Shown piece by piece: positions 50,368-53,377 of a stretch of DNA of 64,000 nucleotides. Both the position numbers and the translations under genes were made by a program. The DNA lies in assembly GCF_900114325.1 (NCBI RefSeq), contig NZ_FOSR01000008.1, positions 62,001-126,000 on the forward strand, written 5' to 3'. Every line of letters starts with the position of its first letter. The stretch's first letter is position 1. The DNA comes from Rhodanobacter glycinis (GTDB taxonomy: Bacteria; Pseudomonadota; Gammaproteobacteria; Xanthomonadales; Rhodanobacteraceae). The notes beneath the pieces are model-generated. The model ran no database searches. It worked only from the letters and a program-made list of their open reading frames with translations, and was not told the DNA's origin.

Positions 50368-50763
50368 ATGAGCGAGATTCCCGGCGATCTGAAATTCCTC
50401 AAGTCCCACGAGTGGGCCCGCGTCGAAGACGACGGCCTGGTGCGCGTGGGTATCTCCGACCATGCCCAGGGCCAGCTTGGTGACCTGGTCTATGTCGAGC
50501 TGCCGGAAGTCGGCGCCAGCGTCCAGGCCGGCAACGGCGCGGTGGTGCTGGAGTCGGTGAAGGCGGCCTCGGACATCTATTCGCCGGTTTCCGGCGAGGT
50601 GGTGGAAGTGAACGAGGCGCTCAGCGACAAGCCCGAGATCATCAACGAAGACGCCTATGGCGATGGCTGGATCTTCACCGTGCGCATGAGCGATCGCGCC
50701 GAGCTGGACGAGTTGCTCGACGCCGATGCCTATGCCGAGTTGATCGAGAACGAAGACCACTGA
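50368..50763 (+). CDS. gcvH: Glycine cleavage system H protein
   Basis: A 131-residue lipoyl carrier. K65 in [12 protein letters not shown] is the lysine that carries lipoate, and [14 protein letters not shown] follows as in all H proteins. [16 protein letters not shown] opens the domain. It moves the aminomethyl group from the P protein to the T protein. A terminator lies 20 bases after its stop codon. Confidence 0.97.
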
Positions 50764-50782
50764 TCGCATCACGTGCACCAGG

Positions 50783-50813
50783 ACGCCGTCGGCCGCGCAA
50801 GCAGCCGGCGGCG
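50783..50813 (+). terminator. Terminator after gcvH
   Basis: Arms acgccgtcggc and gccggcggcgt pair over 11 bases with one G-U wobble, 9-base loop, followed by tttcgt. It lies just after gcvH and fits the end of the gcvTH transcript. Confidence 0.75.
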
Positions 50814-50940
50814 TTTTCGTGATGCGGCTGGTCGCGGTGGATGCTGCGCGAGCAGGCAGGGAACGAACGGGGTTTTCGTTGTCGCTCGATCGCGTGACGT
50901 GCGTGCATCCTGCACACCGATCCCGTCGCGCGGGCTGTGC

Positions 50941-50958
50941 GCGATGGACGTCCATCGC
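50941..50958. promoter_or_regulatory. 18-bp palindrome with a ggacgtcc core
   Basis: gcgatggacgtccatcgc is a perfect palindrome. Its core shares GACGTC with the E. coli met box AGACGTCT. Only one box is seen here, whereas MetJ needs at least two side by side, so this may be a weak or auxiliary site, or bind another factor. Confidence 0.35.
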
Positions 50959-51267
50959 AGATGCAGGCGCGAGTGGGTGGATCGATTTTCCGCATTCGCG
51001 TGATGCCGCCAGGTGCTCATCGGACTCTCGTCGGCACGCTCGTGGCGATGTGCCTGATGCTTTTTTCGCTGGTCGATGGATGGATTTCAGTGGCGTTCCG
51101 TTCATGCGGCAGGAGGTATTCACGACCCTGCGGAACGCGCTTTCCGGCGCCATCATTCGACACGTCGGCATATGACGCAAGTTGCGTGATGGCGTGGATC
51201 AACACGGGGAAAGCCTTGTGCCATGCGGCCTCCCGTGGATGGGGTTGTTTTGCGCTGTTTCAGTGAT

Positions 51268-51283
51268 GGACGTATGGACGTCC
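51268..51283. promoter_or_regulatory. Possible tandem met boxes
   Basis: Two adjoining 8-mers, ggacgtat and ggacgtcc, each match the met-box consensus AGACGTCT at 6 of 8 positions and lie in the 8-base register in which MetJ dimers bind. The same tract can be read as two perfect copies of atggacgt (51266-51281). It is about 160 bases upstream of the MetJ-like gene, which makes self-control plausible. Only the sequence supports this. Confidence 0.45.
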
Positions 51284-51382
51284 ATTTGCATATTTCCAAA
51301 TGGCTCTCGGAATGCCGCAGTGACGGGCTTCCGGGCCCCTTGCGGGGTGGATGAAACAGATTGATTTCATGGCTAAAATCAA

Positions 51383-51411
51383 TTGACAGAAGAAATCTTC
51401 AGGAATAGCTT
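51383..51411 (+). promoter_or_regulatory. Possible promoter of the MetJ-like fusion gene
   Basis: A perfect -35 box ttgaca at 51383-51388 is followed, 17 bases on, by tagctt (51406-51411), a weak -10 with 3 of 6 matches. A start of transcription near 51418 would leave a leader of about 20 bases with gggga before ATG 51440. Confidence 0.35.
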
Positions 51412-51439
51412 TCGCTTCAGATTACGGGGAACAGGCGTC

Positions 51440-52054
51440 ATGGCACTATCGAAATTCGTAAAGCCCTATGTAGAGCACGGTGAGAAGGCCGGGTCGGTAC
51501 GCAAGATCACGGTCTCCATTCCGATGCATGTGCTTCGGCTTCTTTCCGATCTGCGTACCTATCGCCAAGTGAACAATCTTCGGCACGCCACCAATAGCGA
51601 CTTGTTGGTTGAGGCGTTCCTGCACGCTTTTACTGGGCAAACACTGCCAACTGATGAGGAGCTGAGACGAACCATGGCCACTGCCAAGAAAACCACTGCC
51701 AAGAAACCGGCCGCCAAAAAGGCCGCCAAGAAAGCCGTCAAGAAAACCGCAGTCAAGAAGACTGCCGTGAAGAAGGCTGCCGTGAAGAAAGTCGCGGCGA
51801 AGAAGTCTTCCGCCAAGAAGCCGGTGGCTCGCAAGCCGGCTGCCAAGAAAGCCGCTGCGAAGAAGGTCGCCAAGAAGGCGACTGCCAAGCGCCCTGCTGC
51901 CGCCAAGAAGGCTGCGGTCAAGAAGGTCGCCGTGAAGAAGGTCGGCGCAAAGAAGGCTGCACCGCGCAAGGCCGCTGCCAAGAAGGCTGCACCGGCACGC
52001 GTGGTCAAGGCCACCCGTACCGCGAAGCCCAAGGCGAAAGCCAAGAAGAAGTAA
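51440..52054 (+). CDS. metJ: MetJ-like repressor fused to a histone-H1-like lysine/alanine tail
   Basis: A 204-residue protein. Residues 1-77 match the methionine repressor MetJ as I recall it from E. coli: [20 protein letters not shown], then [20 protein letters not shown] and [20 protein letters not shown], which form the ribbon-helix-helix DNA-binding part. E. coli MetJ ends about 30 residues later; here that end is replaced by residues 79-204, an AAKK/AVKK repeat with about 46 lysines in 126 residues, like AlgP or chlamydial Hc1. ATG 51440 gives the MetJ-type [10 protein letters not shown] start. The DNA-contacting strand appears intact. Context next to gcvTH fits methionine/one-carbon control. 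The tail may bind DNA without sequence choice. MetJ relation is firm by eye; function of the fusion is inferred. Confidence 0.88.
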
Positions 52055-52130
52055 GTACACAAAGACAAGATCGTAGATCGACTTGCCTCCCTGCGGTGCC
52101 CAGCGCGGGGAGACCTTTCGAGAGTACTTC

Positions 52131-52151
52131 GTCCCGGCCCCGTGCCGGGAC
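52131..52151 (+). terminator. Terminator after the MetJ/H1 gene
   Basis: Stem gtcccggc/gccgggac of 8 bp with a 5-base loop, then gcttcgttt, 76 bases after the stop codon. Likely end of the transcript. The rest of 52055-52351 shows no gene. Confidence 0.6.
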
Positions 52152-52351
52152 GCTTCGTTTCCGGGGTGACATTTTGCGGCCATGCGGCTAGAGGAAATCC
52201 GGCCGGCGTGCCGTGATCCCGGCCCCGATTTGCCGAGCTGGCCCAATAGCGCTACCTTTCCGCCATCCGCGCTGCGGCGAGCCAGGGGGCTCGGCGCTCC
52301 TGGATTCACAGGGGGGAAGCGCGGGTATCTGATGCCACTCAGCGAGAGATC

Positions 52352-53377
52352 ATGGATACCCGATACATGTACAGTGCGCGCCGCCGTGCGCGTGGGGCCG
52401 TCCGGCCCGTCATTCTAGCCGTCGTCGTCGTCGTCGTTTTGCTGGCCGCCGCCGCCTGGTTCCTGATTTTCATGCCGCACCAGGAATTGGTGGCTGCGGA
52501 CAATGGCGGCCATCCGTCCACGCCCGTGACCGTCGACCATGTCGCCGCGGCTCCGGTGAACGTGGAAGCGATGAGCGTGAACCAGCTGCTGTCCGAAGCT
52601 GGCAAGGCGATGAAGGAACAGCGTTACCTGGCGCCGGCCGGCAACAACGCCTTCGAGTTCTATCTGAAGGTGCTGGAGAAGCAGCCGGGCAACCAGGTTG
52701 CCACCGATGCCTTGCGTGAAACGTTCCCGTTCGCCGCCTCCGCGGCGGAGCAGACGATCAACCAGCGCAACTTCGACGAGGCGCAGCGCGAGATCGACCT
52801 GCTGACCAAGGCCGATCCGACCAACTTCACTCTGACCATCCTGCGTTCCAAGCTCGATGCCCAGCGCAAGACGCTGGACCAGGAGCAGCAGAAGCAGCTC
52901 GATCAGCAGCATCAGCAGCAGCTGGCCGCACAGAAGGCCGCCGCGGACAAGGTGGCGGCGGCGAAGCTGGCGCAGGAGCAGGCTGCCGCGCAGGCCGAGC
53001 AGCAGAAGCAGCAGGCGCTGGCTGCACAGCAGAAGGCGCAGCAACCGGCATCCGCCTCCCCGGAAACGGCTGCTGCCAGCGGGCCCGCCAGCAGCACGGG
53101 TGTGACGCGCGATGCCGTGCTGACCCGGCAGGTCAATCCGCGCTATCCGACCCAGGCCCAGCGATCGGGTACCGAGGGCTGGGTGGAAGTGGACTTCAAG
53201 GTGGATACCGAGGGCAAGGTGCGTGATGCCAAGGTGGCGCAGGCACAGCCACGGCACGTGTTCGACCGCTCCGCACTGGAGGCCGTGAATCGCTGGAGGT
53301 TCCAACCGGCCATGCGCAACGGCCAGCCGGTGGCCACCGAACTGCGTCGTCGCATCCAGTTCAAGCTGCGCCAGTAA
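52352..53377 (+). CDS. TonB-like energy transducer
   Basis: A 341-residue inner-membrane-anchored protein. A basic start (RRRARG) precedes one membrane segment at about 18-41. Residues ~70-170 have a helical, repeat-like pattern (EFYLKVLEKQPGNQVATDAL) that may be TPR-like. Residues ~170-245 are glutamine/alanine/lysine-rich helix instead of the usual proline-rich spacer. The last ~85 residues are the TonB C-terminal domain (NPRYPTQAQRSGTEGWVEVD and VNRWRFQPAMRNG). It would reach across the periplasm to an outer-membrane receptor or, as some relatives do, act in envelope upkeep. No exbB or exbD is adjacent. Confidence 0.85.
   Translation: MDTRYMYSARRRARGAVRPVILAVVVVVVLLAAAAWFLIFMPHQELVAADNGGHPSTPVTVDHVAAAPVNVEAMSVNQLLSEAGKAMKEQRYLAPAGNNAFEFYLKVLEKQPGNQVATDALRETFPFAASAAEQTINQRNFDEAQREIDLLTKADPTNFTLTILRSKLDAQRKTLDQEQQKQLDQQHQQQLAAQKAAADKVAAAKLAQEQAAAQAEQQKQQALAAQQKAQQPASASPETAAASGPASSTGVTRDAVLTRQVNPRYPTQAQRSGTEGWVEVDFKVDTEGKVRDAKVAQAQPRHVFDRSALEAVNRWRFQPAMRNGQPVATELRRRIQFKLRQ

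Follow-up and report, generated by a model that had tools for sequence, protein, structure and literature searches.

A methionine repressor with an H1-like tail in the Rhodanobacteraceae and a conserved element at its junction that may mark a second translation start

The stretch of Rhodanobacter glycinis DNA analysed here (64,000 nucleotides of contig NZ_FOSR01000008.1, referred to as the window) carries an open reading frame at positions 51440 to 52054 of the forward strand in which a methionine repressor, MetJ, is followed by a long tail rich in lysine and alanine. This locus raises the question of whether such a fusion is genuine, how far it is conserved, and whether its gene specifies one product or two. 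The features on which the answer depends are collected in Table 1. Our reading, to which we give somewhat better than an even chance, is that in the Rhodanobacteraceae the methionine repressor has become a two-product gene, which would yield the fusion and, from an internal start, the histone H1-like tail alone.

Table 1. Features of the fusion gene and its surroundings, in positions of the window
Feature	Position	Strand	Basis
Tandem MET box GGACGTATGGACGTCC, candidate operator of the fusion gene itself	51268..51283	+	0 mismatches to RGACGTMYRGACGTMY
Conserved block AAAATCAATTGACAG...GGAATAGCTTTCG, putative leader/promoter	51375..51416	+	Conservation in 83 aligned loci
MetJ ribbon-helix-helix domain, residues 1-77	51440..51670	+	Profile matches, solved-structure alignment, sequence alignment
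Junction element GCTTTTACTGGGCAAACACTGCCAACTGATGAGGAG, synonymous-site conservation, residues 63-74	51626..51661	+	Codon and alignment comparisons
GAGGAG, candidate Shine-Dalgarno sequence of the internal start	51656..51661	+	Spacer of 12 nt in this gene
Internal ATG (Met79), candidate start of a separate 126-residue H1-like protein	51674..51676	+	In-frame ATG in 82 of 83 loci
Lys/Ala-rich H1-like tail, residues 79-204	51674..52051	+	Sub-threshold HC2 and NF038053 matches; composition
Terminator-like hairpin 3' of the gene	52130..52152	+	Consensus match only

The fusion protein and its distribution

Translation of the frame gives a 204-residue protein (calculated mass of 21.8 kDa) with no internal stop, and the start ATG at 51440 is nearly invariant (at least 90%) in an alignment of 35 sequences. 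The preliminary description of this locus held residues 1 to 77 to be MetJ-like, and the profile searches bear this out: the Pfam MetJ family covers residues 5 to 85 with 114.3 bits against a cut-off of 25 (E value of 2.7e-33), and the NCBIfam MetJ equivalog NF003622 covers residues 5 to 89 with 119.4 bits against a cut-off of 110. Residues 5 to 77 align without a gap to solved Met repressors (1cma_A; E value of 1.2e-29, 49 of 73 residues identical), and residues 58 to 67, a region that we take to line the S-adenosylmethionine (SAM) pocket, are all invariant in alignment A1 with the exception of F64. The structure prediction suggested in the preliminary description, made as an AlphaFold monomer model of the first 100 residues, was too poor to bear on the ribbon-helix-helix dimer, with a mean pLDDT of 54, a pTM of 0.24, and no strand. 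The fusion gene is the only MetJ of its genome. Since the protein lies above the cut-off of the NCBI model from which MetJ proteins are named, what is new lies in the tail, in its conservation throughout a family, and in the element at the junction.

The tail, from M79 to K204, comprises 126 residues (12.9 kDa calculated for the tail alone), of which 37% are Lys and 34% are Ala, with not a single Asp or Glu. Chlamydial Hc2 and Burkholderia-type H1-like proteins are separate proteins. The tail resembles them in composition, but it scores 34.9 bits against the HC2 family (PF07382; cut-off of 40) and 32.6 bits against the Burkholderia H1-like profile NF038053 (cut-off of 80); as both matches fall below the cut-off, we describe the tail as H1-like in composition and not as a formal member of either group. 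Position 1 of the NF038053 profile aligns with residue 79, that is, with the internal methionine. In the 83 loci of the family set described below, the tails range from 40 to 309 residues, have mean contents of 37% Lys and 35% Ala, and are free of Asp and Glu in all instances except one. Such a tail would be expected to bind DNA without specificity. Two further Lys/Ala-rich regions were noticed in the same genome: a separate 273-residue H1-like open reading frame on contig C17 (L143:1420-2241), whose C-terminus differs and has acidic residues and which thus represents another H1-like gene, and a third stretch on contig C24 (C24:21403-21609; L142) that lies within an 847-codon open frame.

In a sample of the order Xanthomonadales, MetJ was present in 96 of 299 genomes and in 4 of 12 families, with 76 of the genomes (22 genera) in the family labelled f1 and 20 in f8, f9, and f12. 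The gene also occurs at named loci from Rhodanobacter, Luteibacter, and Dyella, and because the Rhodanobacter and Luteibacter loci were placed in the Rhodanobacteraceae, we take f1 to be this family. All MetJ frames in the 76 f1 genomes are long, with 137 to 399 codons between stops, whereas all 20 MetJs of f8, f9, and f12 were read and are tailless proteins of 79 to 97 residues (14 of 90 to 97 and six of 79 to 83). The fusion is therefore not spread over the Xanthomonadales, the order for which a search had been suggested in the preliminary description. The f12 proteins (L048-L053; 79 to 83 residues) end shortly past the conserved sequence TGQPLPTDEEL and lack the usual C-terminus as well as any tail. 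In a sample of the class, five of 369 genomes contained MetJ; two of these belong to f1, and the remaining three have frames of 112 to 118 codons. A family-wide search of the Rhodanobacteraceae recovered MetJ in 227 of 233 genomes (226 above the cut-off) and in all 26 genera; the matches listed include some short frames of 85 to 104 codons, several of which lie where a contig ends, and the tail counts given here are not drawn from that list.

The tail counts come from 83 family loci, namely, 84 minus L035, which is truncated at the junction by the end of its contig; five of the 76 f1 genomes (G145, G169, G179, G255, and G257) lie outside this set. The filter applied to the loci required an in-frame Lys-rich stretch and removed no family locus other than L035. 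All 83 gene sequences are distinct, although many come from close relatives, and hence they do not amount to 83 independent cases. The frame is free of stops across the junction in every one of them, which rules out an assembly error as well as a frameshift between 51660 and 51680, the finding that had been named beforehand as one that would split the gene into two. The fusion of MetJ with an H1-like tail proposed in the preliminary description is thus real and conserved through the Rhodanobacteraceae, the tail being H1-like by composition. A state that might have preceded the fusion, in which an H1-like gene of its own would lie next to a tailless metJ, was sought in 14 of the 20 tailless loci as Met-started frames of at least 30 amino acids with more than 22% Lys and more than 15% Ala, and none was found within flanks of 0.4 to 4 kb.

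MET boxes and the methionine regulon

The tandem MET box upstream of the fusion gene is the only site in the window with at most one mismatch, where 0.01 would be expected. At this threshold, MET boxes are found 5' of the gene in 44 of the 83 relatives, compared with 0 of 83 for the reversed pattern, while the other 39 lack them. Two promoter candidates were identified, TTGACA-17-TAGCTT within the conserved leader block (by eye) and ATGAAA-17-TAAAAT at 51351 to 51379 (by scan), and TTGACAG is present in 69 of 83 loci. It is of note that the MET boxes lie approximately 70 to 100 nt 5' of the likely promoter, which is farther than a simple repressor site.

Across the genome, tandem MET boxes with at most one mismatch gave 41 strand hits, compared with 5 for the reversed pattern; since the pattern is nearly palindromic, these hits reduce to 25 places by our own count, and a perfect AGACGTCTAGACGTCT is among them. 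Some of the tandems adjoin open reading frames resembling metE, cysK, aspartate kinase, homoserine dehydrogenase, MetQ, and a TonB receptor. Neighbouring frames were listed for 19 places, two of which overlap, and from these 12 frames were chosen by eye and 10 were scanned, with eight matching a family at an E value of 1e-20 or less and two matching none. The curated cut-off was reached by cysteine synthase, an aromatic amino acid transaminase, and aspartate kinase. MetE, the TonB receptor (a weak match to a B12 receptor), and a DEAD helicase fell below it and are cut by the end of the locus, and homoserine dehydrogenase and MetQ (226.0 against 228.85 bits) fell below it although uncut. Because other sites have no evident target, the regulon is only a sketch. 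One perfect tandem, at approximately position 1501 of L123, precedes by 45 nt a DEAD-box RNA helicase frame, which is not an obvious methionine gene.

As the sole MetJ of a genome in which MET-box tandems stand beside methionine-type genes, the fusion is very probably the functioning methionine repressor, and by its likeness to MetJ it would be expected to respond to SAM. In this regard, a comparative survey lists no MetJ regulon for the four Xanthomonadales genomes that it covers and assigns SamR to them instead (PMC4239095), whereas our data point to a MetJ regulon in the Rhodanobacteraceae. A proteome study of Rhodanobacter thiooxydans FW510-R12 recorded an increase of a putative MetJ repressor with nitrate, together with a decrease of four methionine enzymes, and is silent, in its accessible text, on any MetJ tail (PMC12146267).

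A conserved element at the junction and the candidate internal start

The region in which the repressor domain passes into the tail is conserved beyond the level of the protein, a feature absent from the preliminary description. Residues 63 to 77 are encoded as GCT TTT ACT GGG CAA CCA CTG CCA ACT GAY GAG GAG CTR AGA CGN, and counts made codon by codon across the 83 loci reveal hardly any synonymous variation here although several are minor codons; the constraint thus extends past the 36-nt element to residue 77. Where a pair of loci shares a residue, codon identity stands at 0.895 for the element and 0.521 for the flank; restricted to the 5% of pairs with the greatest divergence, the values are 0.786 and 0.337, respectively. 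By parsimony, on a tree built from the flank and with flank codons chosen for a nearly constant residue, the element shows 2.33 third-position changes per codon (15 codons) compared with 12.03 in the flank (38 codons; P = 3e-7). In contrast, 14 tailless MetJs from other families of the same order have no such excess at the corresponding columns (0.382 against 0.471).

With up to three mismatches, the 36-nt element occurs in 75 of 76 family genomes, in a single copy each, and in none of the 223 other genomes of the order; an exact core followed by ATGG is present in 182 of 233 family genomes, twice in four of them, and is missed by one base in the window's own genome. The single copy in that genome (at most three mismatches) led us to reject the element as a repeated DNA site. 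A hammerhead-like core, a sigma-54 or ECF promoter, and a frameshift site at the element were likewise dropped, by eye only apart from the Rfam search.

Downstream of the element, an in-frame ATG is kept in 82 of 83 loci despite 3-nt indels and despite varied residues before it (T in 64, D in 10, R in 4, I in 3, and A in 1), and it is followed by Ala in 81 of these loci and by Val in one. The spacer between GAGGAG and the ATG measures 12 nt in 78 of the 83 loci and 9 nt in 4. Between -60 and +36, predicted folding is weaker than the average for random synonymous recodings in 82 of 82 loci (mean z of +1.43), while this is true of a control block in the flank in 17 of 83 only (mean z of -0.73). 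The only family gene without the element, L082 (genome G236), has GTG in place of the internal ATG and a junction region that folds strongly (-37.1 kcal/mol), but retains a tail with 29% Lys; it is also a counter-case, for here a tail is present with neither element nor ATG. The jointly conserved ATG, GAGGAG, and spacing, the weak folding, and the pattern in L082 are what a second translation start would be predicted to leave. The open frame in 83 of 83 genes speaks for a need for the full-length fusion, and the retention of element, GAGGAG, and ATG speaks for a further event at the junction, of which the simplest would be the synthesis of another protein, consisting of the tail alone.

Several observations fit this reading less well. 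In 14 of 20 loci, GAGGAG is predicted to be less accessible than it is in recoded controls, which does not favour free initiation; the usual spacer of 12 nt is long; the tail stays below the cut-off of both H1-like profiles; the conserved block begins 48 nt 5' of the ATG, beyond what an ordinary Shine-Dalgarno region needs; and the conservation of Met79 can reflect needs of the protein instead of a start.

Some of these points suit an alternative, rather improbable in our estimation, according to which only the full-length fusion is made, the ATG is incidental, and the element serves as another nucleic-acid signal, such as the target of a small RNA or an RNA-binding protein, an RNA processing site, or an intragenic DNA site. 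An invariant block longer than an initiation site, a GAGGAG of reduced predicted openness, and a frame whose full-length product evidently matters in every gene would all be in keeping with this view. However, it leaves the joint conservation of ATG, GAGGAG, and spacing through indels, and the weak folding there, unaccounted for; moreover, no Rfam family reached its threshold between 50700 and 52500, where the sole match over the element lies on the opposite strand (18.1 against 34 bits), and a scan found no sigma-70 promoter in the element, so that an intragenic promoter of this type was rejected.

An RNA switch over the internal start is less probable still and in our view unlikely. Here, GCUUUU (51626-51631) would pair with AGGAGC (51657-51662), with a small GGCA/UGCC hairpin between them, so that temperature, SAM, or a protein would close or open the ribosome site. 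Exactly these two stems make up the consensus fold of 12 loci (-6.9 kcal/mol), all six outer pairs can form in 80 of 83 loci and all four inner pairs in 79, and the lower predicted openness of GAGGAG agrees with a closed site. Yet the outer stem is broken in three loci and the inner stem in four, and no pair shows a compensatory change, the near-invariant sequence of the element leaving no covariation by which the fold could be judged. The segment from the window also folds no better than shuffled sequences (z of +0.63), the surrounding region is more weakly folded than its recodings in all 82 loci, and the Rfam search of 50700 to 52500 returned no known thermometer or riboswitch at threshold. 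Finally, a neutral low-complexity tail, with codon conservation that merely reflects recent shared ancestry or codon bias, is very improbable: the wide range of tail lengths is in its favour, but it is disfavoured by the codon identity, parsimony, and folding comparisons, as flanking codons of the same genes have undergone about five times more changes on the same tree and 82 of 83 tails are acid-free.

Relation to known systems and implications

Enterobacterial MetJ (1cma) has the same domain, which in the fusion occupies residues 5 to 77 and scores above the family cut-offs, and the MET-box tandems near methionine-type genes are a further likeness; what differs is the portion after residue 78 of the solved repressor, which is replaced here by the Lys/Ala tail. 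A parallel for the overall architecture is provided by AlgP/PhaF of Pseudomonas, in which an N-terminal domain is likewise followed by a long tail, disordered and rich in Lys and Ala, for which a comparison with histone H1 has been drawn (PMC9239181). The N-terminal domain is a different one, however, the MetJ fusion having a sequence-specific repressor in this place, and the AlgP/PhaF C-terminal domain consists of KPAA repeats whereas the tail described here is AAKK-like. AlgP needs its tail to space polyphosphate granules evenly, and contact of that tail with DNA is presumed (PMC9239181). A role other than compaction is therefore possible for the MetJ tail as well, besides those envisaged in the preliminary description, in which the tail could bring compaction to met genes or link one-carbon status to chromosome packing. 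With regard to the proposed second product, an in-frame internal start that gives two proteins from one gene has a precedent in Cas11, which is made from cas8/cas10; the short product has been demonstrated experimentally there (PMC11899642), while in the present case we infer it from the sequence. In the literature searched, whose scope left most subscription journals outside, no description of an H1-tailed MetJ or of an internal start in metJ was found.

On the two-product reading, the full-length protein would form a MetJ dimer that, by homology, binds SAM and tandem MET boxes. The long, strongly basic tail on each subunit would add unspecific contacts with DNA, and tighter or bridged complexes of repressor and DNA may form through it. 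Ribosomes on the same mRNA would also initiate at the internal ATG, by means of GAGGAG and the weakly folding element 5' of it, and the product would be the tail alone, a small H1-like protein. Its existence and its presumed role in the nucleoid are deduced from sequence. A broader proposal, tentative and on the whole doubtful, is that methionine and SAM sensing are coupled to chromosome packing by one gene, which would provide a SAM-responsive, H1-armed repressor together with a free H1-like nucleoid protein, the internal start lying under a nearly invariant RNA element and both products being set by the MetJ circuit.

In summary, a textbook repressor has acquired a chromatin-like arm across a whole bacterial family, and a strongly conserved signal is hidden inside its coding sequence. 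Should the internal product be confirmed, a single gene would tie a regulator of amino acid metabolism to a nucleoid protein, and the Rhodanobacteraceae would offer a simple system in which to ask what the H1-like tails of bacteria do.
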